Source of the DNA: Haladaptatus paucihalophilus DX253
GTDB lineage: Archaea; Halobacteriota; Halobacteria; Halobacteriales; Haladaptataceae
Assembly: GCF_000376445.1 (NCBI RefSeq)
Contig: NZ_AQXI01000002.1
Span: forward strand, 186,001-250,000
Length of the DNA stretch: 64,000 nt
Direction of reading: 5' to 3'
Below, piece after piece: positions 7,256-58,246 of this stretch. The first letter of the stretch is position 1, and each line of letters begins with the position of its first letter. Both the position numbers and the translations under genes were made by a program. The notes under the pieces are model-generated. The model did not search any database, was not told where the DNA came from, and worked only from the letters and a program-made list of their open reading frames with translations.

Positions 7256-7277
7256 ACGTTCATCAACGACGGTTCGA

Positions 7278-16178: not shown

Positions 16179-16357
16179 GCCGTCACCCCCTCGATTTGCT
16201 TCGTGACCGTCCCGTCGGCGAACCGCTGTCGAACGCGAGATGGTGAAGCGCGGCGTACTTCGTCTCCGGTCGAACATCGGGGAGGAGATACGTTTCGAAC
16301 GTCGATGCCGTCGAAAATGCGCCCGTACTCGGTAAGACGGCGACACTGTGTGATCAT
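16175..16357 (-). CDS. Possible 60-aa leader ORF overlapping anmK
   Basis: This short ORF starts with ATG and ends with a TGA that overlaps the GTG of anmK, the arrangement expected of translational coupling. The product is basic (many Arg), contains no known motif and lacks the acidic bias of neighbouring proteins. It may instead be untranslated leader or the eroded end of an older gene. Confidence 0.2.
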   Translation of the reverse strand: MITQCRRLTEYGRIFDGIDVRNVSPPRCSTGDEVRRASPSRVRQRFADGTVTKQIEGVTA

Positions 16358-19903: not shown

Positions 19904-20929
19904 ATGTATTATTCGAAGCGGATCGGGCAGTCAGTGCTAGTGTTCCTGCTGGCGCTGACGGTGACGTTCGCCCTGTACCGAATGTTACCGTTCGGCCCCG
20001 TCGAGATGGTGAAAAACCATCTGATGCAACAGATGATAGAACAGGGAAGCAGTCCGTCGCCACAGCAGATGGAACGCATCAACATGATGGTACAGACGTA
20101 CACCGGTATCGACCCGTCCAAACCGTGGTACGTTGCGTACTACGATTACCTCCGAAACATCATCGTCTATCAGGACTTCGGACGGTCGATTTTTAAGAAT
20201 CGACCGGTCTTCGACATCCTGTTCGAGGCGATGCCGTGGTCGCTGTTCATCAGCATTTACGGCCTCGCGCTCGGGACGACGGTCAGCCTGCTGCTCGGCG
20301 CGGTCATGGCGTACAACGAAGGCGGTACGTTCGACACCGGGATGACGATATTCTCCATCGCCAATACGACCGTTCCGTACTACATCGTCGCCATCCTCTC
20401 GCTCATCGTCTTCTCGTTCTCCCTCGGCTGGTTGCCGAGCGGCGGACGGATGGACCCGAACACGACGGCCGGACTGAACCTCCCGTTCATCGTCGGCGTC
20501 GTCAAACACGCCATCCTCCCCGTGTTCTCCTCGTTCATCGCCGGATTCGGCGGTGCACTGGCGTTTCGGGGGAACTGCATCCGCGAGATGGGCGAAGGCT
20601 ACATCCGCGTCGCGCGACTCCGCGGCATCAGTCAGGGCCGCATCGCCATCCGCTACGTCGGCCGCAACGCGCTGTTGCCCGTCTACACGAGCATTATGAT
20701 GGGCATCGCGGGCATCTTCGGGAGCAGCATCATCCTCGAAACCATCTTCAACTACCCCGCGATGGGGCTCGTGACGTACAACGCGCTGTTGAACCGCGAT
20801 TACCCGCTCATCATGGGGTCGTTCATCTTCTTCACCAGCATCACGCTGTTGGGAATCCTCATCGCCGACCTGACGTACGGCGTCATCGACCCCCGCGTCA
20901 AAGGAGGGAGCGAACGTGAAGCCTACTGA
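19904..20929 (+). CDS. ABC importer permease 1 (DppB/OppB type)
   Basis: The start at MYYSKRIGQSVLVFL gives 341 residues; eleven codons further upstream are less likely. An N-terminal transmembrane helix (about 8-28) is followed by an extracytoplasmic loop and five more helices. The cytoplasmic EAA-type loop that contacts the ATPases is around GYIRVARLRGISQGRIAIRY. It pairs with the following permease, whose GTG start overlaps its end by 14 bases. Confidence 0.9.
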   Translation: MYYSKRIGQSVLVFLLALTVTFALYRMLPFGPVEMVKNHLMQQMIEQGSSPSPQQMERINMMVQTYTGIDPSKPWYVAYYDYLRNIIVYQDFGRSIFKNRPVFDILFEAMPWSLFISIYGLALGTTVSLLLGAVMAYNEGGTFDTGMTIFSIANTTVPYYIVAILSLIVFSFSLGWLPSGGRMDPNTTAGLNLPFIVGVVKHAILPVFSSFIAGFGGALAFRGNCIREMGEGYIRVARLRGISQGRIAIRYVGRNALLPVYTSIMMGIAGIFGSSIILETIFNYPAMGLVTYNALLNRDYPLIMGSFIFFTSITLLGILIADLTYGVIDPRVKGGSEREAY

Positions 20930-22001
20930 GAATGGCGATGCCGAAACGTCGCACGCCGACACCCCTCGTCGAACCGACGACGAATCCGCACGAACCGACG
21001 GCGGAACGAACAGTCGGTCCGGTTCCGCCCCGATGGACGAGAGCATCTTCACGCAAACGTCGAACGTCCCAGAACTGACGGGACGCGAGAAGGCCCGGCG
21101 GTCGTTCGAGCGGCACGTCTACGCGCCCATCGCGGTGCTGTTGAACGATTGGCGGGCGCTCGTCGGGTCGCTCATCCTCCTCGGCTTCGTCGTCATGGGC
21201 GTCATCGCCGCGGCACCGTTCGGCATCGTCCTCGTCGAGAAAGCCACCGTGATGGAGGGACCGATATACCTCTCGCCGTTCCAAGACTGGGCGTATCCGC
21301 TCGGAACCAACGTGATGGGGAAGTCGATTCTGAAACAGGTCGTCCACGCGACGCCCGCGATGCTGGAGATGATCCTCGCCGGTGCGTTGCTGTCGGTCTG
21401 TCTCGGAACGCTCATCGGCACCGTCGCCGGTTACCGCGGCGGCCGCACCGACTCCGCGTTGATGACGCTCACGGACGTCGTTCTCACCATTCCCGGCATC
21501 GCGCTGGTCATCGTGCTGGCGAGCATCTACCAACCGGAAAGCCCCCTCGTCGTCGGCCTCATCCTCGGCATCGACAACTGGCCGAAGTTGGCGCGGACGG
21601 TTCGCTCGCAAGTGTTGAGCATCCGCGAGGAGGCGTTCACCGAAGCCTCGCGCATCATGGGCCTGTCGGAGCTTCACATCCTCCGCAAGGACGTGGTTTC
21701 GAACCTGATGCCGTACATCTCGGTCAACTTCGCGACCAGCGCCCGGAAGATAATCTTCGAGTCCGTCGGGTTGTACTTCCTCGGTATCCTCCCCCGCTCG
21801 AACCTGAATTGGGGATTGATGATGAACGACGCGTACAACCAAGCGAACCTGACGAACCCCGACCAGATACACTGGTTGCTGGTGCCGATGGCGCTCATCA
21901 TCCTCATCTCGCTCGGATTCATCCTGCTCGCGCAGGGGCTCGACCGGGTGTTCAACGTCCGCCTTCGCGCGCGCCACGAAACCGCCGGAGGTGACGAATG
22001 A
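20916..22001 (+). CDS. ABC importer permease 2 (DppC/OppC type)
   Basis: This 361-residue protein uses a GTG start preceded by GGAGG. The first 65 residues are a hydrophilic, probably disordered extension; the membrane part follows with six helices (first about 82-106). The EAA-type loop is near EEAFTEASRIMGLSELHILR. Its end overlaps the next small gene by ATGA. A GGAGGTGA Shine-Dalgarno sequence for that next gene lies inside its last codons. Confidence 0.9.
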   Translation: MKPTENGDAETSHADTPRRTDDESARTDGGTNSRSGSAPMDESIFTQTSNVPELTGREKARRSFERHVYAPIAVLLNDWRALVGSLILLGFVVMGVIAAAPFGIVLVEKATVMEGPIYLSPFQDWAYPLGTNVMGKSILKQVVHATPAMLEMILAGALLSVCLGTLIGTVAGYRGGRTDSALMTLTDVVLTIPGIALVIVLASIYQPESPLVVGLILGIDNWPKLARTVRSQVLSIREEAFTEASRIMGLSELHILRKDVVSNLMPYISVNFATSARKIIFESVGLYFLGILPRSNLNWGLMMNDAYNQANLTNPDQIHWLLVPMALIILISLGFILLAQGLDRVFNVRLRARHETAGGDE

Positions 22002-22246: not shown

Positions 22247-22386
22247 TGACTCGACACGCACCACACGAATCCATGACCACCACCGATATCAAACACACCG
22301 ACGGAGCAACACACGCCAACCGAGAGCAACGCATCGACCGACCGCGACACACCGACCGGTTCCGCGAAACCGGCGGCCGGAGGTGA
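22246..22386 (+). CDS. Possible 46-aa basic, His/Arg/Thr-rich mini-protein
   Basis: This frame starts at an ATG overlapping the stop of the preceding small membrane gene (TGATG) and ends at a TGA that is itself part of the GGAGGTGA before the ATPase gene. The product begins MTRHAPHESMTTTDIKHTDG and is rich in His, Arg and Thr, quite unlike the acidic proteins around it. Perfect junctions on both sides favour translation; the composition argues against it. It may only carry ribosomes across the spacer. Confidence 0.35.
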   Translation: MTRHAPHESMTTTDIKHTDGATHANREQRIDRPRHTDRFRETGGRR

Positions 22387-22391
22387 CGCCG

Positions 22392-23504
22392 ATGGCAACC
22401 GAATTCCGGCCCGCGTCGGACACCGACACGCCGTCCGAGGAAGACGTCATCCTGGAAGTCCGGGACGCCAGCGTCTCGTTCAGCATGGACCGCGGGGATT
22501 CCCGCGTCCTTCGGGACGTCAGTATCGACGTCCATGCAGGCGAGGTCCTCGGCGTCGTCGGCGAGAGCGGGTCCGGCAAGTCGATGCTCGCCTCCGCGAT
22601 GCTGGACGCCATCGTCTCGCCGGGACAGGTGGATGGGGAAGTCATCTACCATCCGCCGGACGGCGGCGAACCGGTGGACGTGCTATCCCTCTCCCGCGAG
22701 GAACTGACGAAGCTCCGCTGGAACGAGATTTCGTTCGTCATCCAAGGTGCCCAGAGCGCGTTCAACCCGACGATGACCATCGGTAGTCACTTCGAGGAGA
22801 CGCTTCGCGCACACGGCGCGGACGTCTCGGAGGGAATGGAGTTCGCGCGCGAACTCCTCGCGGACCTCTACCTGCCGACCGAGCAGGTGTTACGCTCACA
22901 CCCGCACGAGCTGTCCGGCGGGATGAAACAGCGGGCGCTCATCGCCCTCGGCCTCGTCCTCGACCCGAACGTCGTCGTGATGGACGAACCGACCGCGGCG
23001 CTCGACCTGCTGATGCAGCGGTCCATCGTCAGCATGCTGGAGGACCTCCAGGAGAAGTACGACCTGACGATGGTGTTCGTCACCCACGACCTGCCGCTCG
23101 TCGCCGACCTCGCCGACCGCCTCGCCGTGATGTACGCCTTCGACCTCGTGGAACTCGGCCCGACCGACGAACTCCTCGACGACGCGGCCCACCCCTACAC
23201 CCGCGCGCTGCTCAACGCCGTCCCGAACATCTCCGACCGGGCGATGGACATCGAGGGAATCGAGGGGTCGAGTCCCGACCCCGTCTCGCTCCCGAACGGC
23301 TGTTCGTTCAACCCGCGCTGTCCGCTGGCCGACGGGACGTGCGAGTCCGAAAGTCCCCACCTCCGCGACGTGGACAAGGGTCACGAGGTGGCCTGCTTCT
23401 ACCCCGAAGAGGCCCGTGAGACGGTCCCGCTGTTGCTCGACGAGCCGCCGAAGTCGGCAGACGCGGCGGATGCCGCCGACGCCAGCGGAGGTGAGCGACG
23501 ATGA
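22392..23504 (+). CDS. ABC importer ATPase 1 (DppD/OppD type)
   Basis: The ATG start is chosen because GGAGGTGA (22379-22386) stands five bases in front; a GTG three codons earlier overlaps that signal. The 370-residue product has Walker A GESGSGKS, Q-loop VIQGAQ, signature LSGGMKQR, Walker B VVVMDEPTAALD and the switch His in VTHDL. The C-terminal oligopeptide-transporter extension with clustered cysteines (CSFNPRCPLADGTC ... CF) is present; in this family it often carries an iron-sulfur cluster. An acidic tail ends the protein. Confidence 0.92.
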   Translation: MATEFRPASDTDTPSEEDVILEVRDASVSFSMDRGDSRVLRDVSIDVHAGEVLGVVGESGSGKSMLASAMLDAIVSPGQVDGEVIYHPPDGGEPVDVLSLSREELTKLRWNEISFVIQGAQSAFNPTMTIGSHFEETLRAHGADVSEGMEFARELLADLYLPTEQVLRSHPHELSGGMKQRALIALGLVLDPNVVVMDEPTAALDLLMQRSIVSMLEDLQEKYDLTMVFVTHDLPLVADLADRLAVMYAFDLVELGPTDELLDDAAHPYTRALLNAVPNISDRAMDIEGIEGSSPDPVSLPNGCSFNPRCPLADGTCESESPHLRDVDKGHEVACFYPEEARETVPLLLDEPPKSADAADAADASGGERR

Positions 23505-24640
23505 CCGACCGCCGCGGTGACCCGCTCCTCTCGCTGCAGAACGTGAGCGTCCACTTCGAGAAAGAACGGTTGTTCGGCCTCGCCGGGTCCGAGACGGTCC
23601 ACGCCGTGGACGACGTGAGCCTCGACATTTACGAGAACGACATCGTTGCACTCGTCGGCGAATCCGGGTGTGGAAAGACGACGCTCGGAAAGACGGCCAT
23701 CGGCGTCCAGCGTCCGACGGAGGGGAACGTGCTGTACCGGGGGCAAGACGTGTGGGAAACCAAGGAATCCGGCGGCCTGTTCGACAGAAAAGAGTCCGCC
23801 GGCGAGTACTCGGCGGAGGAGATACGCCGTTCGCTCCAGATGATTCACCAGGACCCCGGCAGTTCGCTGAACTCGAACTACACGGTCGAGTCGAGCCTCG
23901 CCGACCCGTTGAAACACTGGCAACCGGAGATGAGCGAAGCGGACCGACGCGCCCGCATCTACGGCCTGCTCGAATACGTGGGTATGGCCCCGGCGGAGGA
24001 TTACGCCAAACGGTATCCTCATCAACTCTCCGGCGGGGAACAACAGCGCGTGGCGCTCATCCGGGCCTTGCTGATGAACCCGGACCTCATCCTCGCCGAC
24101 GAGGCCATCAGCGCGCTCGACGTGTCGCTTCGCGCCGAGATGATGGACCTCATGCTCGAACTGCAGGACCAGTTCAACACCTCGTACCTGTACATCTCGC
24201 ACGACCTCGCCAACGCCAAGCACCTCACCCAGCGGGCGAACGGCCGCATCGGAATCATGTATCTCGGCGAACTCGTCGAGATAGGGACGCCCGAACAGAT
24301 AATCCACGACCCACAACACCCGTACACGAAGGTGCTTCTCTGGGCGACCTCCGACCTCAGGAATCGGTCCGAGAGCGTGCCGGAGCCGCCGATTCGCACA
24401 CTCGACATCCCCGACCCCGTGGACCCGCCGTCCGGGTGTCGGTTCCACACGCGCTGTCCCGAGGCGCGGACGGCGTGTACGGAATCGTGTCCATCGCTCG
24501 CCGACCGCGAGGGCGACGGTCGGCGGACGGCCTGCTTCCGAAACGAAGCAGACCACGCCTACTGGGAGAGCGAACCGCTCTCGGACGACGGACGGTCCGA
24601 AAAACCCCAAGCCCCCCGCGAGACCGCGGACGGCGACTGA
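23501..24640 (+). CDS. ABC importer ATPase 2 (DppF/OppF type)
   Basis: This 379-residue partner ATPase overlaps ATPase 1 by four bases and has GGAGGTGA at 23487-23494. Walker A is GESGCGKTT, Q-loop MIHQDPGSS, signature LSGGEQQRV, Walker B LILADEAISALD. Walker B carries EAISALD where EPTSALD is common, a usual variant in archaeal OppF proteins. The C-terminal extension has the cysteine set CRFHTRCPEARTAC ... C. It is the last gene of the importer operon and ends three bases before the convergent enolase stop. Confidence 0.92.
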   Translation: MTDRRGDPLLSLQNVSVHFEKERLFGLAGSETVHAVDDVSLDIYENDIVALVGESGCGKTTLGKTAIGVQRPTEGNVLYRGQDVWETKESGGLFDRKESAGEYSAEEIRRSLQMIHQDPGSSLNSNYTVESSLADPLKHWQPEMSEADRRARIYGLLEYVGMAPAEDYAKRYPHQLSGGEQQRVALIRALLMNPDLILADEAISALDVSLRAEMMDLMLELQDQFNTSYLYISHDLANAKHLTQRANGRIGIMYLGELVEIGTPEQIIHDPQHPYTKVLLWATSDLRNRSESVPEPPIRTLDIPDPVDPPSGCRFHTRCPEARTACTESCPSLADREGDGRRTACFRNEADHAYWESEPLSDDGRSEKPQAPRETADGD

Positions 24641-24643
24641 ACC

Positions 24644-25759
24644 TCAGTCGCACCGATACCGTTCGACCTTTTCCTCGTCCACCGTCACCCCGAGCCCCGG
24701 CCCGTCCGGGACCCGGAGCGCGCCGTTCTCGACCTCGAACGGGTCCTCGATGATGTAGTCGTCCCACCCGTAGTAGGTGCTGTCCGGCGGGAGGTTGATA
24801 CCGGGCGTGCTCGCCACGGTGTGGAGCATCGCCGCGGTCTTGACGCCGAGGTCGAAGCCGCAGTGGTGGGACACCGAGACGCCCGCGTTGGCCGCCATGG
24901 CGACCTGTTCGCGCACGGCGAGGATGCCGCCAGCGGGCACGAGGTCCACGACGGCCACGTCGATGGCGTCGGCCTGCAACAGAAAGCGGAGGTTGCGCGG
25001 GAAGTACGTGTCCTCGTTGACCGCGACGGGCGTCCGCACGCGGTTGCGGAGCGAGGCGTACGTCCCGTAGGTGTCGATGCGAACCGGCTGTTCGAGGTAC
25101 TGGAGGAGGATGCCCTCCTCTTCGAGTCGGGTGGCGACCCGAACCGCGTCCTCGAACGACCAGCCCTGATTTGGGTCGAGTCGGAATTCGAGTTCGCCGT
25201 CCACCTCGTCGTGCATCGCGCGGATTCGCTCGACGTCCTCGCGCCAGTCCGGCCCGGCTTTCGTCTTCAGCGTCGAAAAGCCGTGTTCGACGGCGCGTCG
25301 GGCGTAGGTCCGCGACTCCTCCGGCGAGAGGATACCGAGGCAGGTGGCGATGTCTACCGACTCGCGGGTCTTCCCGCCGAGCAGTTGATGGACGGGGACG
25401 CCCACCGTCTTGCCGAAGGCGTCCCAGAGCGCGGTTTCGACCGCCCCGAGAAACGGCCGAACTTTCACGTAGGGGAAGTAGAACGACTCGACGAAATCCC
25501 GTATTTCGCCCACCTCGCGGCCGACGAGTTCCGGGGCGATAACGTCGTCCACGACCGCCTTCGTCACCGCGGCGGACTTCATCCCGACGAGCATCTCGCC
25601 CCACCCCGTCACGCCGTCGTCCGTTTCGACCTTCACGAGCATTCGCGTGACCGACGTCACCTGGTCGTGGTTGCTCACGTAGGGAGCCAGTCCGAGTTCG
25701 TCTTCGAGCGGTTTGACACCCATCTCTACAGGGATGGCTGACACGTTCGTCACCGACAT
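24644..25759 (-). CDS. Enolase-superfamily enzyme, mandelate-racemase / sugar-acid dehydratase subgroup
   Basis: The start at MSVTNVSAIPVEMG gives 371 residues (Met13 is an alternative). The capping domain covers about 1-125 and the barrel the rest. Catalytic positions: KTK at 165-167, metal ligands Asp195, Glu223 and Glu249, Asp272 in VDLVPAGG, and His298/299 in SHHCG. The Asp-His pair and the absence of a second-side Lys place it with mandelate racemase and sugar-acid dehydratases rather than with muconate cycloisomerase or Ala-Glu epimerase. A role on an aldonic or amino-sugar acid is therefore likelier than peptide epimerisation. It is divergent from the PIG-L deacetylase gene. Confidence 0.85.
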   Translation of the reverse strand: MSVTNVSAIPVEMGVKPLEDELGLAPYVSNHDQVTSVTRMLVKVETDDGVTGWGEMLVGMKSAAVTKAVVDDVIAPELVGREVGEIRDFVESFYFPYVKVRPFLGAVETALWDAFGKTVGVPVHQLLGGKTRESVDIATCLGILSPEESRTYARRAVEHGFSTLKTKAGPDWREDVERIRAMHDEVDGELEFRLDPNQGWSFEDAVRVATRLEEEGILLQYLEQPVRIDTYGTYASLRNRVRTPVAVNEDTYFPRNLRFLLQADAIDVAVVDLVPAGGILAVREQVAMAANAGVSVSHHCGFDLGVKTAAMLHTVASTPGINLPPDSTYYGWDDYIIEDPFEVENGALRVPDGPGLGVTVDEEKVERYRCD

Positions 25760-25859: not shown

Positions 25860-26684
25860 ATGATTTCGGAGACGGTACGAGTTCTCGTCGTCGGCGCGCA
25901 TCCCGACGATTGCGACCTCAAAGCGGGCGGCGTCGCGTGCAAATATGCGGACGACGGCCACGACGTGCTGTTCGTCTCGGTGACGAACGGCGAGGCCGGA
26001 CACCACGAACTCGGCGGCGCGGAACTGGTTCGACGCCGCCGCGCCGAAGCGAACGCCGCGGCATCCGTTGCCGGGGTCGGGTTCGAGCAGTTCGACATCC
26101 CGGACGGTCGGGTCGAACCGTCGCTGGACAATCGGGACCGACTCATCCGCCGCATCCGCGAGTTTCGACCCGACCTCGTGCTCACTCATCGACCCAACGA
26201 TTACCACCCCGACCACCGCTACACGGCGCAACTAGTGCGCGACGCCGCCTACCTCGTCGCGGTGCCGAACGTCTGCCCGGCGACGCCCGCGCTCGACTCG
26301 AATCCCGTGTTCGCCTACCTGAGCGACACCTTCGAGCGCCCGTATCCCTTCTCGCCTGACGTGGTGGTCGATATCGACGACGCCGCGGACCGGAAGTTCG
26401 AGATGCTCGACTGTCACGGCTCCCAGATGTACGAGTGGCTACCGTACGTCGAGGGCGTGCTGGATGACGTCCCCGACGACCCGGACGAGCGGTTCGACTG
26501 GTTGCGAAGCGGCGGCCTGCCGCACGTGGAAGCGCTTTCGACCGTCGCGGACCGCTACCGCGACGACCTCGTCGAGCGATACGGTTCGGCGGGCGAGGAG
26601 GTCCGCTACGCCGAGGCGTTCGAAGTGAGCGAGCACGGCGCGCCGCTGACGGACGAGACGAAGGCGCGACTGTTCCCGTTCTGA
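25860..26684 (+). CDS. PIG-L / LmbE-family zinc-dependent N-deacetylase
   Basis: The start at MISETVRVLVVGAHPDD gives 274 residues. Zinc-site motifs are AHPDD (13-17, His14 and Asp17 as ligands, Asp16 as base) and HRPNDYHPDH (110-119, with His116/His119). The family removes acetyl from GlcNAc in several contexts, including archaeal diacetylchitobiose deacetylase and BshB/MshB. The protein has no signal peptide, so it would act on sugars inside the cell. Next to NagZ, an importer, glucose dehydrogenase and a glucosaminate-lyase-like enzyme, GlcNAc or a GlcNAc-containing product is the natural candidate. It is followed after 44 bases by a GATase-like gene on the same strand. Confidence 0.88.
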   Translation: MISETVRVLVVGAHPDDCDLKAGGVACKYADDGHDVLFVSVTNGEAGHHELGGAELVRRRRAEANAAASVAGVGFEQFDIPDGRVEPSLDNRDRLIRRIREFRPDLVLTHRPNDYHPDHRYTAQLVRDAAYLVAVPNVCPATPALDSNPVFAYLSDTFERPYPFSPDVVVDIDDAADRKFEMLDCHGSQMYEWLPYVEGVLDDVPDDPDERFDWLRSGGLPHVEALSTVADRYRDDLVERYGSAGEEVRYAEAFEVSEHGAPLTDETKARLFPF

Positions 26685-26728
26685 CGCGAACGACAGGGTT
26701 ATAGGGAGACGGTCTGACACGTCAATCG

Positions 26729-27457
26729 ATGACGAACGTCTTGCTCGCCGGTGAGTCGTGGGTAACGGTACAGTTCGAGATAAAGGGGAGAAACGTCATG
26801 CGCGACAGCCAGTACGGGGAGGCGGCGGACCGGTTCATCGAAACGCTCGAATCGGTCGGCGCGGAGGTGACGTATCAGCCGTGTCACGTCGCCGCCGAAT
26901 CGTTCCCGCGGACGACCGACGCGCTGGACGAGTACGACCTCGTTATTCTGAGCGACGTCGGCGCGGACACGCTCCAGATAACGGATCGAGTGGCGGGCGG
27001 CGACACGGACGTCGACCGCTGTGCGCTCCTCGCCGACTGGGTTCGGGACGGCGGCGCGCTCGGCATGGTCGGCGGCTACATGAGTTTCGCGGGAAAAGGC
27101 GGGCAGGCGCGATACGGACACACGCCGGTCGCCGACGTGCTTCCGGTCGAAATAGCGGCGGGCGACGACCGCGTGGAAACGCCCGACGGTTCGGTACCGC
27201 GAAACGAGGGCGTGTCGAACGCCGACCTGCCCGACGAGTGGCCGCACGTCCTCGGCTACAATCGGACGACGGCGAAACCGGATGCCGAGGTATGGGCGAC
27301 GGTTCGGGACGACCCGTTCCTCGCCGTCGGCGACTTCGGGGACGGGAGTTCGTTCGCCTACGCGACGGACTGTGCACCTCACTGGGCACCCGACGGGCTT
27401 CTGTCGTGGAACGGCCTGCCGACGCTCTGGGAGCGGGTTCTCGACCGCGTTTGTTAG
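26729..27457 (+). CDS. Putative glutamine-amidotransferase-like protein
   Basis: This 242-residue soluble protein resembles the GATase1-like family (class I glutamine-amidotransferase fold, often annotated cytoplasmic protein). Characteristic words are VLLAGESWVTVQFEIKG at the start, YDLVILSDVGADTL and LADWVRDGGALGMVGGYMSF near the middle. The nucleophile Cys of true amidotransferases is not present at the expected strand end, where GGYMSF is found. It is in tandem with the PIG-L gene and ends exactly where the convergent gene ends. ThuA-type sugar enzymes have a related fold, so a sugar role is possible, but none is shown. Confidence 0.72.
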   Translation: MTNVLLAGESWVTVQFEIKGRNVMRDSQYGEAADRFIETLESVGAEVTYQPCHVAAESFPRTTDALDEYDLVILSDVGADTLQITDRVAGGDTDVDRCALLADWVRDGGALGMVGGYMSFAGKGGQARYGHTPVADVLPVEIAAGDDRVETPDGSVPRNEGVSNADLPDEWPHVLGYNRTTAKPDAEVWATVRDDPFLAVGDFGDGSSFAYATDCAPHWAPDGLLSWNGLPTLWERVLDRVC

Positions 27458-28462
27458 TCAGTTCACTTCGTCCAGATACGCGTTCCAGACGCCCATCGGG
27501 TCTTCACACGCGAGTTCCGAGATGGTCCGACAGCCGTCGTAGCCCCACATGAACACGCTGTCGGTACCGAGATCGAGCGCGGTTCGCGTGGCCGTCCGGA
27601 CCTCCTCGGTCGCCGAATCGCCGGACAGACCGAAGCCCTGAATCCACAACTGACTCCGGAGGTCGTTTTCGTCCGCGAGTTCGACCAGCTCCTCGCCGAA
27701 CCGCGAGACGAACTCACCCGGGTCGGCGTCCTCGGTGAACGCGTCCCAGTACGGGTCGGTGGCGAGCACGTCGATGTGTTCGTTCTCCGCGAGTCGCGCC
27801 CAATTGCGCGGCCCGTGGTCGGCCGACCCGGTGGGCATGAGACAGACCGCGTTTTCCGCGCCCGCCTCGTGTGCCAGCGCCATCATCTCGTCGAGGAAGT
27901 CGAGCATCGACTCCTCCCGGAACGACGAGACGGCCTCCGTTTCGGTCGCTGGCATCGGTTCGCCGTACTCCTCGCGGAATCCGTCGCGGCAGTGTTCACA
28001 GCGACAACACCACACGTCGCGGGGATGGTCGTCGCCGTACCAGTGGACGTCGTGCCAGTGGGGTTCGTCCCAGAAGAGCACGTCCGCGCCGAGTCCGGCG
28101 GCGTCGCGCGTCCACTCGCGCATGAACTCGCGGAACGCCGGGTCGTTGAAGCAGGCGGCGGGCACGCGCTCCCCGGTGTTGAGGACCTGCCGACTGTCGG
28201 GGTTGTGCGCGACGAACCGGGAGAACTCCTCGCCGCCGAAGACGCCGCCGACGGCCCACGGGTTGACGTAAACCGACAGCGACTGGTCGCTGCTCGCGGC
28301 GACGATATCCCGCATCGTCTCGCGGTAGAACGCTTGGTCGCGCTCGCTGAAGGTGTGGAGGACGGCGGTCAGTCCCTCTTCGCGAAGTCGTTCGAGGTCG
28401 GCCGCCGCGTGTTCGGGGTCCTGTACGCCGAAATAGCTCGCTCCGCGTTCGATGTCGGGCAT
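27458..28462 (-). CDS. Uncharacterised cysteine-motif protein, probable barrel-type hydrolase
   Basis: This 334-residue soluble protein has an alternation of strands and helices suggesting a TIM barrel: ERLREEGLTAVLHTFSE, LSVYVNPWAVGG, GADVLFWDEPHWHD, then the CRCEHC motif, DVLATDPYWDA, SQLWIQGFGL and SVFMWGYDG. The acidic DEP at a strand end resembles a glycosidase catalytic position. The motif order is shared with the protein at 11348-12532. The gene is convergent with the GATase-like gene with no spacer between the two stops. The function is unknown; a sugar-processing role fits the neighbourhood. Confidence 0.72.
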   Translation of the reverse strand: MPDIERGASYFGVQDPEHAAADLERLREEGLTAVLHTFSERDQAFYRETMRDIVAASSDQSLSVYVNPWAVGGVFGGEEFSRFVAHNPDSRQVLNTGERVPAACFNDPAFREFMREWTRDAAGLGADVLFWDEPHWHDVHWYGDDHPRDVWCCRCEHCRDGFREEYGEPMPATETEAVSSFREESMLDFLDEMMALAHEAGAENAVCLMPTGSADHGPRNWARLAENEHIDVLATDPYWDAFTEDADPGEFVSRFGEELVELADENDLRSQLWIQGFGLSGDSATEEVRTATRTALDLGTDSVFMWGYDGCRTISELACEDPMGVWNAYLDEVN

Positions 28463-28680
28463 GGTCGTGGCGTGATATCACTGCACAGCCGACAACCATG
28501 AACGTATCGACGAGGGGGGTGGAACGAAAGCGGCGGGAAAGCAATCGGAAAGGTATTATTCCACCACAGCGACCCGGATTTAACGGTCGGCGCGCGGGAG
28601 CGAACAACGTGAGCGACCCGCGCGAGGGACGAGTGACGTTCCGTGGGAACGGGGACGAGCGAGGAGGTTGGGGAGGGACG

Positions 28681-28713
28681 AGGGCGGTGCGGTCGCGGTA
28701 TGAACGCCGCCAG
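28681..28713 (+). repeat. 33-bp direct repeat, copy 1 (upstream of the PLP-enzyme gene)
   Basis: The 33 bases from AGGGCGGTGCGGTCGCGGTA to GCCGCCAG are identical at 30303-30335. The similarity extends further upstream in weaker form (GGTCGGCGCG, then GCGCGAGGGACGA, then GGGGAGGG). The two copies bracket the PLP-enzyme gene in the same orientation. Confidence 0.85.
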
Positions 28714-28730
28714 GTTCCCGCGCCGCGTAT

Positions 28731-28778
28731 ACTCTCCTGTGCCGAGGTTGTCGGACTCTCCTGTGCCGAGGTTGTCGG
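28731..28778 (+). repeat. 24-bp perfect tandem duplication
   Basis: Two adjoining identical 24-bp units begin ACTCTCCTGTGCCGAGGTTG and end TCGG, located in the 490-base space before the PLP-enzyme gene. The unit holds no obvious binding-site symmetry. Confidence 0.9.
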
Positions 28779-28959
28779 CCGTTTCGTCCGCGTTCGAGTA
28801 CAGGTGCGACCAGATACAGTGCGACCGGGTGAAGGTGCAACCGGGTACACGTACGATACCCAACGCGCGCAGTTCCCGGGATGGCAATCTGCGACCGACT
28901 CGAATCATTCGAGACGCGAACGACGAAGCTATTTGTTCCGTGCCATGGGAAGGTATCGT

Positions 28960-30171
28960 ATGTCGAACGAAACCATCTACGAGGAGTTGGGCGTCCCGCA
29001 CGTCGTCAACGCGGCGGGGACGAAGACGCGAATCGGCGGCAGTCGAATCCGGCCCGAAGCGATGGACGCCATGGCCCGCGCGTCCGAGGCGTTCGTCCGC
29101 CTCTCCGACCTGCAGGCCGAGGCCAGCGAGTTGATAGCCGAGGTGACGGGCGCGGACGCCGGGTACGTCACCTCCGGAGCGTCGAGCGCGCTGGCGCTCG
29201 GCGCGGCCGCCTGCATCGCGGGCGACGACATCGGCGCGATGGCGCGACTGCCCGAGACGGAGGGCGTGCCGGACGAAATCGTCATGCCGCGAACGCATCG
29301 GACGGGCTACGACCACGCGCTCCGGGCCGTCGGCGCGCGAATCGTGGACGTGGGAACCAACGACCGTCACCTCGGCACCGGGTCGCGCAACGTCGAACCG
29401 TGGGAAATCGCCGACGCCATCGGAGAGAACACGGCGGCGGTGGCCTACGTCGAGAAATCGTACACCGAACCGCCGCTCGACGTCGTGTGCGACATCGCAC
29501 ACGACGAGGGCGTCCCGGTCATCGTGGACGCCGCCGCCGAACTCCCGCCGATGAGCAACCTCTCAGCCTTTATCGACGCGGGTGCGGACCTCGTGGCCTT
29601 CAGCGGCGGGAAGGCCATTCGCGGCCCCCAAACCACCGGCATCCTCGCTGGTGGCGCGGACCTCATCGAGTCCGTCGCCGCCCAGCACCTCGACATGCAC
29701 GCGGCCGAGGCGGTGTGGGAACCGGCCCCGAAACTCGTCCATCCGGGGCGACTCGGCGGCGTCCCGCGGCAAGGAATCGGGCGCTCGATGAAGGTCGGAA
29801 AGGAGGAAATCGTCGGCCTCATCCGCGCCCTCCAGCTTTTCGTGGAAGAGGACCACGACGCCGTAATCGAGGAGTGGCTCGAACGCGCTCGGCGAATCGC
29901 CGCCGAACTCGACGACGTGGACGGCCTCGAACCGTCGCTCACGGCCGACGACAAGACCGCCGTCGCGCCGGAGGTCGTGGTCTCCGTCGACCCGGAAGTG
30001 GCGGGCGTCACCGCGACGGACATCGTTGGCGGTCTCCGACGCGAGGAACCACGCGTCTTCGTCGGCGGGGACGCGCTTCCGGCGGGCGAGTTCACCGTGA
30101 ATCCGATGTGTCTCACGGACGATGAGGCGGACTACGCCGTCGAGCGAATCGTCGCGCACGTCGAGGAGTGA
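28960..30171 (+). CDS. PLP-dependent enzyme of the SelA / D-glucosaminate ammonia-lyase-like family
   Basis: The start at MSNETIYEELGVPHVVNAAG gives 403 residues; the frame is open further upstream through repeat DNA. PLP-fold features are TSGASSALALGAAACIAGDD (71-90), the cofactor Asp190 in VIVDAAAELPP and the Schiff-base Lys218 in FSGGKAIRGPQ. The family includes archaeal SelA-like proteins and DgaE, which eliminates ammonia from glucosaminate-6-phosphate to give a 2-keto-3-deoxy product. Next to glucose dehydrogenase and RidA, lyase action on free D-glucosaminate is an attractive reading. A selenocysteine-synthase role is unlikely, as no partner gene is seen. Confidence 0.82.
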   Translation: MSNETIYEELGVPHVVNAAGTKTRIGGSRIRPEAMDAMARASEAFVRLSDLQAEASELIAEVTGADAGYVTSGASSALALGAAACIAGDDIGAMARLPETEGVPDEIVMPRTHRTGYDHALRAVGARIVDVGTNDRHLGTGSRNVEPWEIADAIGENTAAVAYVEKSYTEPPLDVVCDIAHDEGVPVIVDAAAELPPMSNLSAFIDAGADLVAFSGGKAIRGPQTTGILAGGADLIESVAAQHLDMHAAEAVWEPAPKLVHPGRLGGVPRQGIGRSMKVGKEEIVGLIRALQLFVEEDHDAVIEEWLERARRIAAELDDVDGLEPSLTADDKTAVAPEVVVSVDPEVAGVTATDIVGGLRREEPRVFVGGDALPAGEFTVNPMCLTDDEADYAVERIVAHVEE

Positions 30172-30478
30172 TACGGCGGCGAACGGTTGGCGTGAGTGGG
30201 AGGCTCGTTTGCGGTCGGCGCGTTCGTTTGCGATCGGCGCGTGCGAGAAACGCGCGCGAGGGACGACTGAGCGAACGCGAAGGAGTCGGATGGGGAGGGT
30301 TGAGGGCGGTGCGGTCGCGGTATGAACGCCGCCAGCAACAGTGGTCACGATGATAAAACGCGGGAAAGAGATGGAAGATGAAGCGACGCGACGATAAAAC
30401 GTGGGAGAAAAACGAACGAGGGACGACGCGACGAAGGTGGTGTCGAACGTCCTACCTCGGGGTCGTCCGTGCGAGATT
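30172..30478. other. Intergenic region with repeat copy 2
   Basis: This space between the convergent PLP-enzyme and glucose dehydrogenase genes holds repeat copy 2 and several short words such as GAGGGACGA that recur in the copy 1 region. No gene is apparent. Confidence 0.5.
30303..30335 (+). repeat. 33-bp direct repeat, copy 2 (downstream of the PLP-enzyme gene)
   Basis: Identical to 28681-28713 and in the same orientation, 1.6 kb away. Recombination between the copies would remove the PLP-enzyme gene. Confidence 0.85.
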
Positions 30479-31546
30479 CTACAGCGTATCGAACTCGACG
30501 ACGGTCTTGATAACGCCGTCGCCGGTTTCGAAGGCTTTTTCGGCGTTTTCCGGGGGGTACACGCCCGTGACCAACTTCTCGGTGAACCAGTCGGGAAACG
30601 CCGCGAGCGACTCCTTCGCCGCCTCGAAGTGGCGGACGTTCGAGTTGACGCTGCCGAGGAGCGCCTTGTTCTGGAGAACCAACTCGCGGTGGAGGTCACC
30701 GCCGTCGATTTCGAACATGTGGTCTCCGGGGATACCGAGGAGGGCGGCGACGCCGTTCGGCGCGAGCGCCCGTATCGTCTCGAAGGAGTGAGGCGCGTAG
30801 CCCGTCGCCTCGTAGACGAAATCCATCGGTTCGTGGACGTTCGCAACCTCCGAAACGGACGTTTCGCGCGAATCGACGTACGTCGCGCCCAGCTCCTCGA
30901 TGATGTCGATGGTCGGGTCCGGCCTGTCGCGGCGGCCGAGGCAGTAAGTCCGCTCGAAGTCGTCGCGGTTAACGAGCATCGCCAGCGTGAGCAGGCCGAG
31001 CGGGCCGTTCCCGAGGACGAGCGCGCTCTTCGGTTGCCACTCGAACGGCGACCGACTGGCGTCGGCGTACTCGATGGCCTTCTCGGAGTTGCTGACGGGT
31101 TCGACCAGAAATCCGGTCTCCGAGAACTCGTCGGGGACGGGGACGAGGAACTCCGCGGGACTGGTGAAGAACTCGGCCATGTAGCCGTGCGCGCCGACGA
31201 TGCCGCGTTCGAGATAGGTGCCGTCGGGTGCCACGTCCGGTTCGCCGCGGGCGAAGTAGTCGTTCGGTTCGCCCGCCGGTCGGCGGACGGTCGGGACCAC
31301 GAGGTCACCCGCCTCGAATCGAGTTCCGTTCGGGTCCGCCACGACGCCGACCGCCTCGTGGCCGAGGATTTGGTAGTCCGACCCGTCGGGGAAGCCGCCG
31401 TGGGTTCCCTCAATGACTTCGTGGTCCGTGCCGTCGATGCCGACCCGGAGGGTCCGCACCAGTGCTTCGCCGGACTCGGGGTCCGGTTTCGGAACGTCCA
31501 CCAGTTGTGGACCCGACTCGCCGCGACGGACTGCAACCGCTCTCAC
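30479..31546 (-). CDS. gdh: Zinc-dependent glucose dehydrogenase, haloarchaeal type
   Basis: GTG start, 355 residues, medium-chain dehydrogenase fold. The catalytic-zinc positions carry Asp38 (GIDGTDHE), His63-Glu64 (LGHEAVG) and a Glu near 149, the haloarchaeal glucose dehydrogenase pattern in which Asp replaces the usual Cys. The NAD(P) domain has VLGNGPLGLLTLAML. These enzymes oxidise glucose, and some accept galactose or glucosamine, to the lactone that feeds the semi-phosphorylative Entner-Doudoroff pathway. It lies four bases after ridA in the same operon and beside a glucosaminate-lyase-like gene, so glucosamine is a plausible substrate here. Confidence 0.88.
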   Translation of the reverse strand: MRAVAVRRGESGPQLVDVPKPDPESGEALVRTLRVGIDGTDHEVIEGTHGGFPDGSDYQILGHEAVGVVADPNGTRFEAGDLVVPTVRRPAGEPNDYFARGEPDVAPDGTYLERGIVGAHGYMAEFFTSPAEFLVPVPDEFSETGFLVEPVSNSEKAIEYADASRSPFEWQPKSALVLGNGPLGLLTLAMLVNRDDFERTYCLGRRDRPDPTIDIIEELGATYVDSRETSVSEVANVHEPMDFVYEATGYAPHSFETIRALAPNGVAALLGIPGDHMFEIDGGDLHRELVLQNKALLGSVNSNVRHFEAAKESLAAFPDWFTEKLVTGVYPPENAEKAFETGDGVIKTVVEFDTL

Positions 31547-31550
31547 GTCG

Positions 31551-31937
31551 TCACTCCTCCCCGCGGGCGCTCGCCACGACCTCGATTTCGACGCCGATGT
31601 CGATGGGCAAGTCCTCGACCTGCACGGCGCTCCGGGCGGGATACGGCGCGGAAAAGTGTTCCGCGTACACCTCGTTTATCTCGTCGTAGTCGTCCATGTC
31701 TTGAACGAACACGGTCGCCTTCACCACGTCGTCCAGCGAGCGACCCGCCGCCGCGAGAACGGCGTCGATGTTTTCGAGCGTCCGGGTCGTCTGCTCGCCG
31801 ATGGTATCGCCGACGATATCGCCGGACGTCGGGTCAACGGGTCCCTGCCCGGAGACGTAAATCCGGTCGCCGTCACGGACCGCTTGCGAGAACGGGCCGA
31901 TGCTCGGCGGTGCGGCGTCCGTGCTTATCTCCTCCAT
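31551..31937 (-). CDS. ridA: RidA-family enamine/imine deaminase
   Basis: This 128-residue protein has the canonical RidA active-site region: PYPARSAVQVEDLP with Arg102 and VEIEVVA with Glu117/119, plus the N-terminal PFSQAVRDGDRIYVSG. RidA hydrolyses reactive enamines and imines released by PLP-dependent eliminations. It is the first gene of a two-gene operon with glucose dehydrogenase, and a PLP ammonia-lyase-like gene converges on them, so clean-up of that enzyme's intermediate is a sensible role. Confidence 0.88.
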   Translation of the reverse strand: MEEISTDAAPPSIGPFSQAVRDGDRIYVSGQGPVDPTSGDIVGDTIGEQTTRTLENIDAVLAAAGRSLDDVVKATVFVQDMDDYDEINEVYAEHFSAPYPARSAVQVEDLPIDIGVEIEVVASARGEE

Positions 31938-32512
31938 TCAGTTCACCACCGAAAGGACCGACGCCGGTTTCGCGCTGACTCCGGTACTGGGTGTGACGTT
32001 AGTGTTGACTATTCGTACGACTCCGCGAATCGTGTTGGCCGTCATCGACCCGTATGGTCTCGGTGGGGAATCATAAAACCCGTTGGAGGGAAATTCGACC
32101 GCTAAACCAGCAGGTGGTCGTCGATACTGTTGTAAGGTCATCCTAAAAAGCGTACCGACCGTCGGGTGTAAACGCAAAACGGATCGTTGCGGTCGCTTCG
32201 AATCGAGTATCGAGAGATACAACGTGTCGGCCAACCATCGAGGTGGGACAGGATTGGGACGGGGAAATCCGTGAACAAGAGCGACCTAACGGGAATAGCG
32301 TCGGTCAACGGTGACCGGATGAACGCGGTGTCCCTCGCTCGACGGAGGGGGTTCGATTCGGATGGGCTAGCAGACGTCTCTCGGCTTGAATTCGGTTCCG
32401 ACGACGATTATCTTCCGACGTCGTTTTAAGAACTTTGCGGGAGAACGACAGAACCAACCGGTCAGATTGTCAATGAAAAGAGATATACTGTCCGGTCGGT
32501 GTGTTATTGACG
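31938..32512. other. Intergenic region between ridA and glmU
   Basis: These 575 bases separate divergent genes. Only short frames with unlikely composition are present. A TATA-like GAGATATACTG at 32480-32490 stands about 25-30 bases before the glmU start. I see no RNA gene or repeat. Confidence 0.45.
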
Positions 32513-33688
32513 ATGAAAGCGGTCGTTCTCGCTGCTGGCGAAGGGTCCCGGCTTCGACCCCTTACAAATCGTCGCCCGAAACCGATGCTCCCGGTCGGCA
32601 ACAAGCCGCTCCTGGAGTCGGTCATCGAATCCATCGCCGCGGCGGGTGTGGACGAAATCGTCCTCGTCGTCGGCTATCACCGTGAACGGATTCAGACGTA
32701 CTTCGGCGACGGTCGCCGGTGGAACGTCGATATCACGTACGCGGTACAGGAAAAACAGTTGGGTACCGGACACGCGCTCTTGCAGGCCGAACCGTACATC
32801 GGGTCGGACTTCATCGCGATGAACGGCGACCGATATATCGAACCGTCCGCCGTCGAAACGCTCATCGACGACCACCGACAGACGGGGGCGGCGGGGCTGG
32901 CGACGACGCGGGTCGAAACGCCGAGTCGGTTCGGCGTGATTGAACGCGACAAGCAAACCGTCACCGACATCATCGAAAAGCCGATACCGGGGACGACGAC
33001 CTCGGAACAGATCAACGCCGGTGTGTACGTGTTCGGCCCGGACATCTTCGCCGCGATTCGCCAAACGGAGAGTCGCGGGGAGCTGGCGCTGACGCGAACG
33101 TTGCGAAACTACGTCGAAGACCATCCGCTGCGTGCGATTCCGTACGACGGCCTCTGGGGCGACGTCTCACACCCGTGGGACTTGCTCTGGCTCAACGGCT
33201 ACGTGTTGGACAAACAGGATTCCATCACCGAAGCAGACACGGCACGGACGGCACACGTCGCTTCCAGCGCGGTCGTCCACGACGACGTGATGATGGGAGA
33301 GGACGTGACGGTGCGCGCTGGCGCGGTCGTCTGCAGGGGAACGTCGCTCGGCGAGAACGCGACGGTCTGTGCGAACGCCGTCGTCGAGGATGCCGTCGTC
33401 TTCCCGGACGCGACCATCGAACCGGGAGCGGTCGTCCGGGATTGCATCGTCGGCGCGAACGCGACAATCGGACCGAACACCACCGTCGAAGGCGGCGTTA
33501 CGGACGTGACGCTGGACGAAACCGTCCATCACGACGTGACGTTCGGGGGTCTCATCGGAGACAACGCTCGAATCGGTGGCAACGTCACGGTCCTGCCGGG
33601 CGCTATCGTGGGTGACGGGGTAACGGTGGAGAGCGGAACGACCGTTCGTGAACGAATCGAAGACGGTGCGGTTGTACGGAGAGGATAG
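32513..33688 (+). CDS. glmU: GlmU-like bifunctional sugar-1-phosphate nucleotidyltransferase / acetyltransferase
   Basis: The start at MKAVVLAAGEGSRLRPLT gives 391 residues. The nucleotidyltransferase domain (about 1-230) has LAAGEGSRLRP (6-16), a PKPMLPVGNKPLLE segment and MNGDRYIE at the metal site. The C-terminal part (about 240-390) is a left-handed beta-helix built of hexapeptide repeats, as in acetyltransferases. Archaeal versions make UDP-GlcNAc from GlcN-1-phosphate. The following GlmS gene starts three bases after its stop, so both form one operon supplying UDP-GlcNAc to the glycan genes downstream. A dTDP-glucose-type transferase is the main alternative. Confidence 0.85.
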   Translation: MKAVVLAAGEGSRLRPLTNRRPKPMLPVGNKPLLESVIESIAAAGVDEIVLVVGYHRERIQTYFGDGRRWNVDITYAVQEKQLGTGHALLQAEPYIGSDFIAMNGDRYIEPSAVETLIDDHRQTGAAGLATTRVETPSRFGVIERDKQTVTDIIEKPIPGTTTSEQINAGVYVFGPDIFAAIRQTESRGELALTRTLRNYVEDHPLRAIPYDGLWGDVSHPWDLLWLNGYVLDKQDSITEADTARTAHVASSAVVHDDVMMGEDVTVRAGAVVCRGTSLGENATVCANAVVEDAVVFPDATIEPGAVVRDCIVGANATIGPNTTVEGGVTDVTLDETVHHDVTFGGLIGDNARIGGNVTVLPGAIVGDGVTVESGTTVRERIEDGAVVRRG

Positions 33689-33691
33689 TTC

Positions 33692-35497
33692 ATGTGTGGA
33701 ATCACCGGTTACATCGGAAACGAAAGCTGCTCGACCATCGTCGCACAGTGTCTGAAGAACCTCGAATATCGCGGCTACGACTCCGCGGGTATCGCCCTCC
33801 TCGACGACTCGTTGGAGGTGAACAAGCGAAGCGGGGAGATAGACAACCTGACCGTTCCATCGACGTCGAACGCCACCTGCGGCATCGGTCACACACGGTG
33901 GAGCACGCACGGGGCACCCACGGAGCGAAACGCGCACCCGCACACCGATTGTACGGAGCGGATAGCGGTCGTGCACAACGGTATCATCGACAACTACGAG
34001 GAGTTCAAGACGGACCTCCTCGACGAACACCAGTTCACCAGCGAGACCGATACCGAGGTCATCGCCCACCTCATCGAGGAGGCCCTGAACGAGGACGGCG
34101 TGGACCTCCGCGAAGCGGTCGAACGGGTCGTCTCGAAGCTCTCCGGGAGTTTCGCCATCGCGGTCACGGCCGTCGGCTACGACGGCATCGTCGCGGCGCG
34201 GCAGGACAGCCCCCTCGTCATCGGCCACGACGACGACGCCACCTTCCTCGGGAGCGACGTGACTGCCTTCGTCGAACACACCCGAACGGTCACGTTCCTC
34301 GAAGACGGCGACATTGCACGCCTCACGGAGGACGGAGTGACCATCCTCAACGACGGCGAGGTGGTCGAGCGGGAGCCCCAAACCGTCGATTGGGACGCCG
34401 ACGCGGCCGAGAAGGGCGGCTACGAACACTACATGCGGAAGGAGATACACGAACAACCGCGGGCGGTACGGCAGGCGCTCTCGGGACGTATCGACGAACT
34501 CGCCGGGACGGTGGACCTCGACCTCTCCCTGTCGGAGGAGTACTGTCGCTCCTTGGACGAGATTCAAATCGTCGCGTGCGGAACGTCGTACTACGCCGGA
34601 CTGTACGCCGCCGGGTTGTTGGAGGAGTACGCCGACGTTCGCGTCTCGGTGCACATCGCGAGCGAATACGAGTTCAAGGGGAACCGCGACCCGTGGCGAA
34701 CGCTCGTCGTCGCCGTCACCCAGAGCGGTGAAACCGCCGACACGCTCCGCGCGCTTCGCAAGGCCGCCGGTTCGGGCGCTCGCACGCTCGCGGTGACGAA
34801 CACGGTCGGCTCGACCGTCACCCGCGAGGTGGACGACACGGTGTACATCCGCGCGGGGCCGGAAATCGGCGTCGCGGCGTCCAAGACGTTCGTATCGCAG
34901 GTGACGACGCTGACGCTCGTGACGGTGTATCTCGGCCAACAGCGGGACGCACTGTCCTCGAACGAGCGGGCGAGCATCCTCGAAGAGTTGTCCGCGGTGC
35001 CCAGTGCGATTCAACAGGTGCTCGACGCCGAGCCGACTGTACAACGGGAGGCAAAGGCGTTCGCCGACAGCGAGTCGTTCTTCTTCATCGGGCGGCGACT
35101 CGGCCATCCGGTCGCGCTCGAAGGCGCGCTGAAACTCAAGGAGATATCCTACGAGCACGCGGAAGGGTTCGCGGGCGGCGAACTCAAACACGGGCCGCTC
35201 GCGCTCGTGACGGAAGACACGCCGGTCATCGCGGTCCTCACCGACGAGACGAACGCGTCCGAGACGCTTCACAACGTCAAGGAGGTCGAATCGCGGGGGG
35301 CACCCGTTATCGGCGTTACCTCGGACGACGACCCCAACGCCGTCTTCGATACGACGTTCGACGTTCCGTCCATCGGCTTGATGGAACCCGTGGTCGGGAA
35401 CGTGTATCTACAGCTGTTCGCCTACCACGTCGCAAAGGAGAAAGGCCGCGACATCGACAAACCGCGAAACCTCGCCAAGAGCGTTACCGTCGAGTAA
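33692..35497 (+). CDS. glmS: Glutamine--fructose-6-phosphate aminotransferase, copy 1
   Basis: This 601-residue protein has an N-terminal glutaminase domain with the nucleophile Cys2 (MCGITGYIG) and the Arg/His words GHTRWSTHG and HPHTDCTERIAVVHNGII, then two SIS domains (VACGTSYYAG; TQSGETADTLRAL; EGFAGGELKHGPLAL) and the conserved end DKPRNLAKSVTVE. It forms glucosamine-6-phosphate from fructose-6-phosphate and glutamine, the entry to UDP-GlcNAc. It is coupled with the GlmU-like gene. A second complete copy is at 58247-60046. Confidence 0.95.
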   Translation: MCGITGYIGNESCSTIVAQCLKNLEYRGYDSAGIALLDDSLEVNKRSGEIDNLTVPSTSNATCGIGHTRWSTHGAPTERNAHPHTDCTERIAVVHNGIIDNYEEFKTDLLDEHQFTSETDTEVIAHLIEEALNEDGVDLREAVERVVSKLSGSFAIAVTAVGYDGIVAARQDSPLVIGHDDDATFLGSDVTAFVEHTRTVTFLEDGDIARLTEDGVTILNDGEVVEREPQTVDWDADAAEKGGYEHYMRKEIHEQPRAVRQALSGRIDELAGTVDLDLSLSEEYCRSLDEIQIVACGTSYYAGLYAAGLLEEYADVRVSVHIASEYEFKGNRDPWRTLVVAVTQSGETADTLRALRKAAGSGARTLAVTNTVGSTVTREVDDTVYIRAGPEIGVAASKTFVSQVTTLTLVTVYLGQQRDALSSNERASILEELSAVPSAIQQVLDAEPTVQREAKAFADSESFFFIGRRLGHPVALEGALKLKEISYEHAEGFAGGELKHGPLALVTEDTPVIAVLTDETNASETLHNVKEVESRGAPVIGVTSDDDPNAVFDTTFDVPSIGLMEPVVGNVYLQLFAYHVAKEKGRDIDKPRNLAKSVTVE

Positions 35498-36904: not shown

Positions 36905-37930
36905 ATGACAATGATAGATACGTCCGATATGTGGCAGTTGCTTCCACGACGCGTTCGCCGATTTCCCGCCGACCTCGGCGTCGTCATCGCACTCGTCCTG
37001 GTGACGGTCGGCGTCGTCCGCGCCGGAGGAGTCTGGACGCCGGTTCGACTGTCGTTCGGGTTCCTGTTCCTGTTCTTCCTGCCGGGATACAGCCTCGTCG
37101 CGGTGCTGTTCCCCGAAGCGAGCGGGAATCGAGAGTCCGACGGGGGTGACGAAGGAGACGGCACATCGACCGGATTTCCGCGGCGTATCGACGGTATCGA
37201 GCGCATCACGCTGTCTATCGCGGTCAGCTTGGCCGTCGTTCCGCTCATCGGCTACCTCGTCAGCTACTCGCCGTGGGGGTTGAATCTCGACCCGAGCCTC
37301 CTCGCTATCGGCGGCTTCACCATCGTCTGTGCCCTCGCAGGTGCGGTTCGTCAGTGGACGCTCCCGGAATCGGACCGGTTTTCGGTTCCTATCGAGGACG
37401 CGTATGCGCGCTTCACGCCCGACGTTTCGACGGTGACGAGCCACGTGCGGCCGCTGAACGTCCTCCTCGTCGTCAGCCTCGTCGTCGCCACTGCCGGAAT
37501 CGTCTACACGACGACGACCCCGCGGAGCGACGAGCGGTTCACCGAGTTCTATCTCGGGACGAAAAACGCGTCGGGGAGCACGGTCACGGACGCGTACCCG
37601 AAAAACTTCACCGCCGGAGACGCGAAACATCTCCGCGTCGGTATCGGAAACCACGAGTACGAACGCTCGAACTACACCGTCGTCGTCCTCTTACAACGCG
37701 TGAAACGGAACAACGGATCGACCCGGGTCACGGCCGAGCGGCGGCTCGACCGGTTCCACGTTTCCGCCGGGCAGGGACAAACGGTCGTCGAAAACCGCAG
37801 TCTCGAACCGACGATGACCGGTGAACGGCTCCGGCTCCAGTTCCTTCTGTATCGCGGGGCGGCTCCGGCGTCGCCCTCGGCGAAAAACGCGTATCGACGG
37901 ACGCACCTCTGGATTCGCGTTCATCAATAA
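36905..37930 (+). CDS. DUF1616-family membrane protein
   Basis: This 341-residue protein has four N-terminal hydrophobic segments (about 20-35, 48-70, 102-118 and 130-150), a cytoplasm-facing link and a C-terminal extracytoplasmic beta-rich domain beyond about 205, after a further hydrophobic segment at about 180-200. The words FLPGYSLVAVLFPE and the TEFYLGTKNASG segment of the second half are typical of DUF1616 proteins. The family often lies with archaeal glycosylation genes. The role is unknown. It ends seven bases into the convergent epimerase gene. Confidence 0.8.
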   Translation: MTMIDTSDMWQLLPRRVRRFPADLGVVIALVLVTVGVVRAGGVWTPVRLSFGFLFLFFLPGYSLVAVLFPEASGNRESDGGDEGDGTSTGFPRRIDGIERITLSIAVSLAVVPLIGYLVSYSPWGLNLDPSLLAIGGFTIVCALAGAVRQWTLPESDRFSVPIEDAYARFTPDVSTVTSHVRPLNVLLVVSLVVATAGIVYTTTTPRSDERFTEFYLGTKNASGSTVTDAYPKNFTAGDAKHLRVGIGNHEYERSNYTVVVLLQRVKRNNGSTRVTAERRLDRFHVSAGQGQTVVENRSLEPTMTGERLRLQFLLYRGAAPASPSAKNAYRRTHLWIRVHQ

Positions 37931-38907: not shown

Positions 38908-38911
38908 GCGT

Positions 38912-58239: not shown

Positions 58240-58246
58240 CCGTTCT

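Follow-up and report, generated by a model that had tools for sequence, protein, structure and literature searches.

A haloarchaeal gene cluster with a putative role in scavenging bacterial peptidoglycan

Haladaptatus paucihalophilus DX253, a salt-loving archaeon whose own wall has no peptidoglycan, carries a conserved cluster of about 24.5 kb that looks built to import pieces of the bacterial cell wall and to burn their two sugars by an oxidative route, without the enzymes that bacteria normally need for this. We analysed a window of 64,000 nt (contig NZ_AQXI01000002.1, positions 186,001-250,000) of this 4.3-Mb genome, which has an estimated completeness of 99.95%. The cluster spans positions 7390-31937 of the window. 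The original prediction concerned only four genes at one end (25860-31937), which were read as a non-phosphorylative pathway from GlcNAc to GlcN, to glucosaminate and, by ammonia elimination, to 2-keto-3-deoxygluconate, with RidA acting on the reactive enamine/imine. The four genes are indeed present at this place, and the observation was confirmed. The interpretation was supported only in part, as detailed below. The genes of the cluster are as follows:

7390-8190 (+), creatininase-family amidohydrolase
8416-10041 (-), GH3 beta-N-acetylhexosaminidase, NagZ-like
10047-11213 (-), NamZ exo-beta-N-acetylmuramidase (GH171)
11348-12523 (-), TIM1, predicted glycosidase-like TIM barrel without Pfam/NCBIfam family
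12587-13633 (-), serine hydrolase of beta-lactamase fold, muramyl-amidase (AmiE-like) role inferred
13730-14410 (+), HAD_2-family phosphatase beside anmK, found inside a longer ORF
15006-16190 (-), AnmK, anhydro-N-acetylmuramic acid kinase (start uncertain)
16412-17248 (-), SDR-family dehydrogenase
17370-19337 (+), substrate-binding lipoprotein of the ABC importer
19904-20929 (+), ABC permease 1 (Opp/Dpp type)
20916-22001 (+), ABC permease 2 (start uncertain)
22383-23504 (+), ABC ATPase 1
23501-24640 (+), ABC ATPase 2
24644-25759 (-), enolase-superfamily (mandelate racemase type) enzyme, candidate lactyl-ether lyase
25860-26684 (+), PIG-L/CE14 N-deacetylase
26729-27457 (+), GATase1-like protein, role unknown
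27458-28462 (-), TIM2, predicted glycosidase-like TIM barrel without Pfam/NCBIfam family
28960-30171 (+), DgaE-like PLP enzyme, putative glucosaminate ammonia-lyase
30479-31546 (-), haloarchaeal glucose 1-dehydrogenase (MDR)
31551-31937 (-), RidA enamine/imine deaminase, 4 bases upstream of gdh

The four genes of the original prediction were identified by profile and structure-database searches. The PIG-L protein matched PF02585 (E 2.6e-30), and diacetylchitobiose deacetylases were among its PDB hits. The glucose dehydrogenase (GlcDH) matched PF16912 (Glu_dehyd_C) with 316 bits and, over the full length, the Haloferax mediterranei GlcDH (2b5v) with 518 bits. RidA scored 153.7 bits with TIGR00004 against a cut-off of 106. 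The PLP enzyme matched TIGR01437 (E 1e-60), but with 205 bits it stayed under the cut-off of 385, and it was far under the DgaE equivalog cut-off of NF047797 (199.7 against 600 bits). The lysine of its SGGKA motif aligned to that of 7lc0 and was invariant. The original prediction left out two genes lying between these four, the GATase1-like gene (PF07090, 242 bits) and TIM2, and also the remainder of the cluster to the left.

Several of the further genes passed curated cut-offs. NamZ matched PF07075 and PF20732 (the NamZ_N and NamZ_C domains; 276.4 and 160.5 bits, both over cut-off) and the structure 4k05 (E 5e-85). The NagZ-like protein scored 229.6 bits with NF003740 (cut-off 207) and also matched PF00933. 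AnmK scored 452.6 bits with NF007148 (cut-off 387), and the SDR protein 240.9 bits with NF005559 (cut-off 215). The creatininase-family protein matched PF02633 (E 8e-67), permease 1 matched PF00528, ATPase 1 matched PF00005 and oligo_HPY, and the enolase-superfamily protein matched PF13378/PF02746. The substrate-binding lipoprotein has a Tat-type lipoprotein signal and is conserved with the permeases. Permease 2 and ATPase 2 were assigned by sequence and conserved place. The serine hydrolase matched PF00144 (E 4e-51) with the SxxK and YxN motifs kept; this was its only family match and no solved relative was found at E 1e-15, so that these data speak neither for nor against orthology to AmiE. 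The HAD gene (PF13419, E 2.4e-15; GC3 0.89) was found only after HAD genes had been seen next to anmK in other genomes.

TIM1 and TIM2 were examined by structure modeling. The TIM1 model (pLDDT 82) matched the PgaB glycosidase domain and Cwp19 at Z 23, and the TIM2 model (pLDDT 81) matched the GH42 fold at Z 25.6. A sequence search for solved relatives of TIM2 returned none. TIM2 lies near PIG-L and/or PLP genes in several lineages. The predicted glycosidase folds show no function, and we cannot say what TIM1, TIM2, the creatininase-family protein and the GATase1-like protein do.

We next tested whether the cluster is conserved. The order of the block is kept in 10 further Haladaptatus/Halorussus genomes, some cut by contig ends, and is rearranged in other families; the clustering is thus more than chance. 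What lies beyond RidA is not kept, and for this reason the GlmU/GlmS pair at 32501-35497 was rejected as part of the system. Near relatives, among them Haladaptatus halobius, H. salinisoli and Halorussus aquaticus, carry the block on plasmids. The content is kept across five families. In 10 further AnmK loci from other families, anmK and namZ were always together with TIM1, the creatininase-family gene was found in 8 of the 10, and the enolase-superfamily gene in 9 of the 10 fetched regions, while the tenth genome has it on another contig. The SDR gene was conserved in clusters, but SDR and creatininase were missing from some of them. In one contig (G027:C3), part of the cluster occurs twice, near 8 kb and 218 kb, the copy near the start having broken PLP and ATPase genes, which could be a duplication or an assembly overlap.

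In 391 Halobacteria genomes, AnmK was found in 15, NamZ in 16 and the PLP enzyme in 88. AnmK occurred only with NamZ (15/15 against 1/376; Fisher p 4e-26). The 16 NamZ genomes hold exactly the 16 best matches to the enolase-superfamily protein of the cluster, although the next genomes were close behind (505 against 502 bits) and relatives nearly as similar (58-61%) exist in genomes without NamZ. AnmK genomes were enriched in the PLP enzyme (13/15 against 75/376, p 1e-7), but two of them lack it. The one NamZ genome without AnmK (G397) has namZ-SDR-namZ-enolase-gdh-ridA-PLP-pigL in one run.

The linkage of the genes from the original prediction recurs in many haloarchaea. Of 55 haloarchaeal loci with a relative of the PLP gene and near-full flanks, 29 have RidA, 37 a PIG-L and 23 a close GlcDH within 10 kb. 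The PLP-pigL-gdh-ridA module is only sometimes in the same cluster as anmK and namZ, and the tree of the PLP enzymes shows several separate associations. We therefore read two modules, a widespread amino-sugar oxidation module and a rarer muramic acid module, which are joined here. We also considered the PLP enzyme as a muramic-acid-specific etherase. This was weakened, because the PLP enzymes of peptidoglycan clusters fall in several places of the tree and two AnmK genomes have none. Bacterial relatives of the PLP gene have other neighbours. In four Chloroflexota/Thermomicrobiota relatives (loci L128, L129, L131 and L136) a creatininase-family gene directly follows the PLP gene, a pairing also hinted at in haloarchaea, and an Acidobacteria contig (L132) carries a TIM1 relative (26%) about 4.5 kb from a PLP relative. 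In-frame TAGs were reported for some PLP matches, but three Natrinema relatives simply end in TAG at the C-terminus.

The absence of nagA and nagB had been proposed in advance as a check of the oxidative pathway. In profile searches, on which all genome-wide statements rest, neither NagA nor NagB reached its cut-off in this genome or in 27 relatives of the family (0 of 28 for both); for NagA there were partial matches only, and models of SIS-type deaminases (GlmD, NagB-II) were not applied genome-wide. A functional MurQ-type etherase would likewise count against a MurQ-free route. MurQ was over cut-off in 0 of the 28 family genomes, and was found in 0 of the 15 AnmK genomes even at E 1e-12. 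Weak MurQ hits lay in open frames of GlmS size, and the two within the window are GlmS. These two complete GlmS genes (33692-35497 and 58103-60046) lie about 23 kb apart, the first preceded by an archaeal GlmU-like gene.

AnmK makes MurNAc-6-phosphate, which MurQ normally cleaves. We found a HAD gene beside or near anmK in 13 of 15 AnmK genomes, from two subfamilies with no significant BLASTP similarity to each other. In G010, G024 and G189 (three of these genomes) it is 3-11 kb from anmK, in the others within about 2 kb. That two different HAD types fill this place is our main reason for thinking that the phosphate is removed, as in Pseudomonas, where MupP, a HAD_2 phosphatase, acts with AnmK (PMC5371407). 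The protein of our cluster is a member of the HAD_2 family, but its specificity for MurNAc-6P was not measured. G397, which has no AnmK, fits this view.

We consider peptidoglycan scavenging the best explanation, and hold it with moderate confidence. In this view, the ABC importer takes up bacterial wall fragments, and NamZ, NagZ and probably the serine hydrolase free MurNAc, GlcNAc and peptide in the cytoplasm. Anhydro-MurNAc would be opened and phosphorylated by AnmK and dephosphorylated by the HAD enzyme, so that both forms converge on free MurNAc. GlcNAc would be deacetylated by PIG-L and oxidised at C1 by GlcDH, and glucosaminate would lose ammonia and water through the PLP enzyme and RidA to give 2-keto-3-deoxygluconate for the Entner-Doudoroff pathway. 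MurNAc would likewise be oxidised to the aldonate by the SDR or GlcDH, after which the enolase-superfamily enzyme would eliminate D-lactate, replacing MurQ. Oxidation at C1 makes the C2 hydrogen acidic, and since the lactyl oxygen sits on C3, abstraction of that hydrogen and beta-elimination would release D-lactate. Enolase-superfamily enzymes abstract such hydrogens, and the motifs expected of the mandelate racemase type (KxK, DPN, EQP, NED, H) were invariant in 24 cluster sequences. Gene content, conservation, co-occurrence and the lack of MurQ, NagA and NagB above cut-off were established by computation, while each catalytic step and the order of the steps are inferred; no enzyme activity was tested, and the enolase-superfamily step is the least certain. 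We cannot say which dehydrogenase acts on MurNAc or where the N-acetyl group leaves. The lower pathway is assumed from haloarchaeal physiology: this genome has three DHDPS-family genes as possible KDPG aldolases, and the one scanned was under every cut-off.

A more far-reaching version of the muramic acid branch is possible but remains tentative. After C1 oxidation the enolase-superfamily enzyme, or the PLP lyase, would remove the D-lactyl ether by beta-elimination next to the new carboxylate, a lactyl-ether-cleaving chemistry that we do not know from either superfamily.

With respect to the original prediction, the four gene products do fit the route from GlcNAc to 2-keto-3-deoxygluconate, which is plausible for one of the two sugars. 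Its statement that no such archaeal pathway had been described was not supported. The same scheme, with CE14 deacetylase, GDH, a DgaE-like lyase (DGA), a galactonate-dehydratase-type enzyme and RutC/RidA feeding the Entner-Doudoroff pathway, was published in 2025 as a prediction for chitinolytic Natrarchaeobius (PMC12343721). There it is linked to GH18 chitinases, an unknown kinase is assumed and no muramic acid branch is proposed; our closest loci from that genus carry a different enolase-superfamily protein (30-32% identity).

The context of the cluster is bacterial peptidoglycan (NamZ, NagZ, AnmK) and not simply GlcNAc. A pathway for GlcNAc/chitin only, with the muramic-type genes as incidental neighbours, would agree with the GH18 chitinase with a twin-arginine signal next to the cluster (6095-7357, -) and with the occurrence of the same PLP-pigL-ridA-gdh module beside chitinases in Natrialba and Natrarchaeobius. 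A GH18 relative also lies in the clusters of Halorussus amylolyticus and G024. Since NamZ, AnmK, TIM1 and the enolase-superfamily gene stay together across five families, often without a chitinase, we regard this as unlikely.

The non-phosphorylative nature of the pathway is unproven. The characterised relative of the PLP enzyme, DgaE (7lc0), acts on the 6-phosphate, AnmK makes a 6-phosphate, and the Natrarchaeobius scheme assumes KDPG via an unknown kinase. In a phosphorylated route, AnmK or an unknown kinase would give 6-phosphates, and the PLP enzyme would act on (lactyl-)glucosaminate-6-phosphate and yield KDPG directly. The HAD genes by anmK, the lack of any other recognised kinase among the cluster genes scanned, the unphosphorylated product of NamZ and the low DgaE score of the PLP enzyme, whose substrate was not assayed, speak against this route, and we consider it improbable.

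The closest solved relative of AnmK is levoglucosan kinase (280 bits against 201 for bacterial AnmK), and its activity on anhydro-MurNAc was not examined. The AnmK homologue and the cluster might therefore serve another 1,6-anhydro sugar such as levoglucosan. This appears very unlikely, since NamZ is present with AnmK in all 15 genomes, the AnmK equivalog cut-off was passed and NagZ lies alongside.

We also compared the cluster to bacterial systems. The Bacillus subtilis MurNAc operon murQ-murR-murP-amiE-nagZ-namZ shares NamZ and NagZ, and its AmiE, like our serine hydrolase, is a beta-lactamase-fold hydrolase. Here no MurQ is above cut-off and no PTS was recognised, and an ABC importer, AnmK and oxidising enzymes are present instead. 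Peptidoglycan recycling in Pseudomonas (PMC5371407) shares AnmK with a HAD_2 phosphatase, the lack of MurQ and free MurNAc as product. There MurNAc is rebuilt to UDP-MurNAc by AmgK-MurU, while haloarchaea have no murein, so breakdown is inferred. The chemistry assumed for the PLP enzyme is that of bacterial D-glucosaminate dehydratase and DgaE, both PLP ammonia-lyases.

Archaeal peptidoglycan hydrolases that kill bacteria were reported in 2025 (PMC12352652), and a term search of that paper found no mention of muramic acid catabolism. Our literature searches, which missed most subscription journals, found no report of haloarchaeal muramic acid use. As far as we could search, the peptidoglycan context and the MurQ-free AnmK are new, and they rest on comparative genomics alone. 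If correct, they would show archaea feeding on the bacterial cell wall and not only attacking it, give haloarchaeal AnmK a role without MurQ, and point to a second enzymatic way of breaking the lactyl ether that marks muramic acid. Sixteen of the 391 sampled genomes name the candidate genes, so the proposal is directly testable. Elsewhere in the window, at 37924-39907 (-), we noted two adjacent, similar NAD-dependent epimerase genes, apparently a tandem duplication.
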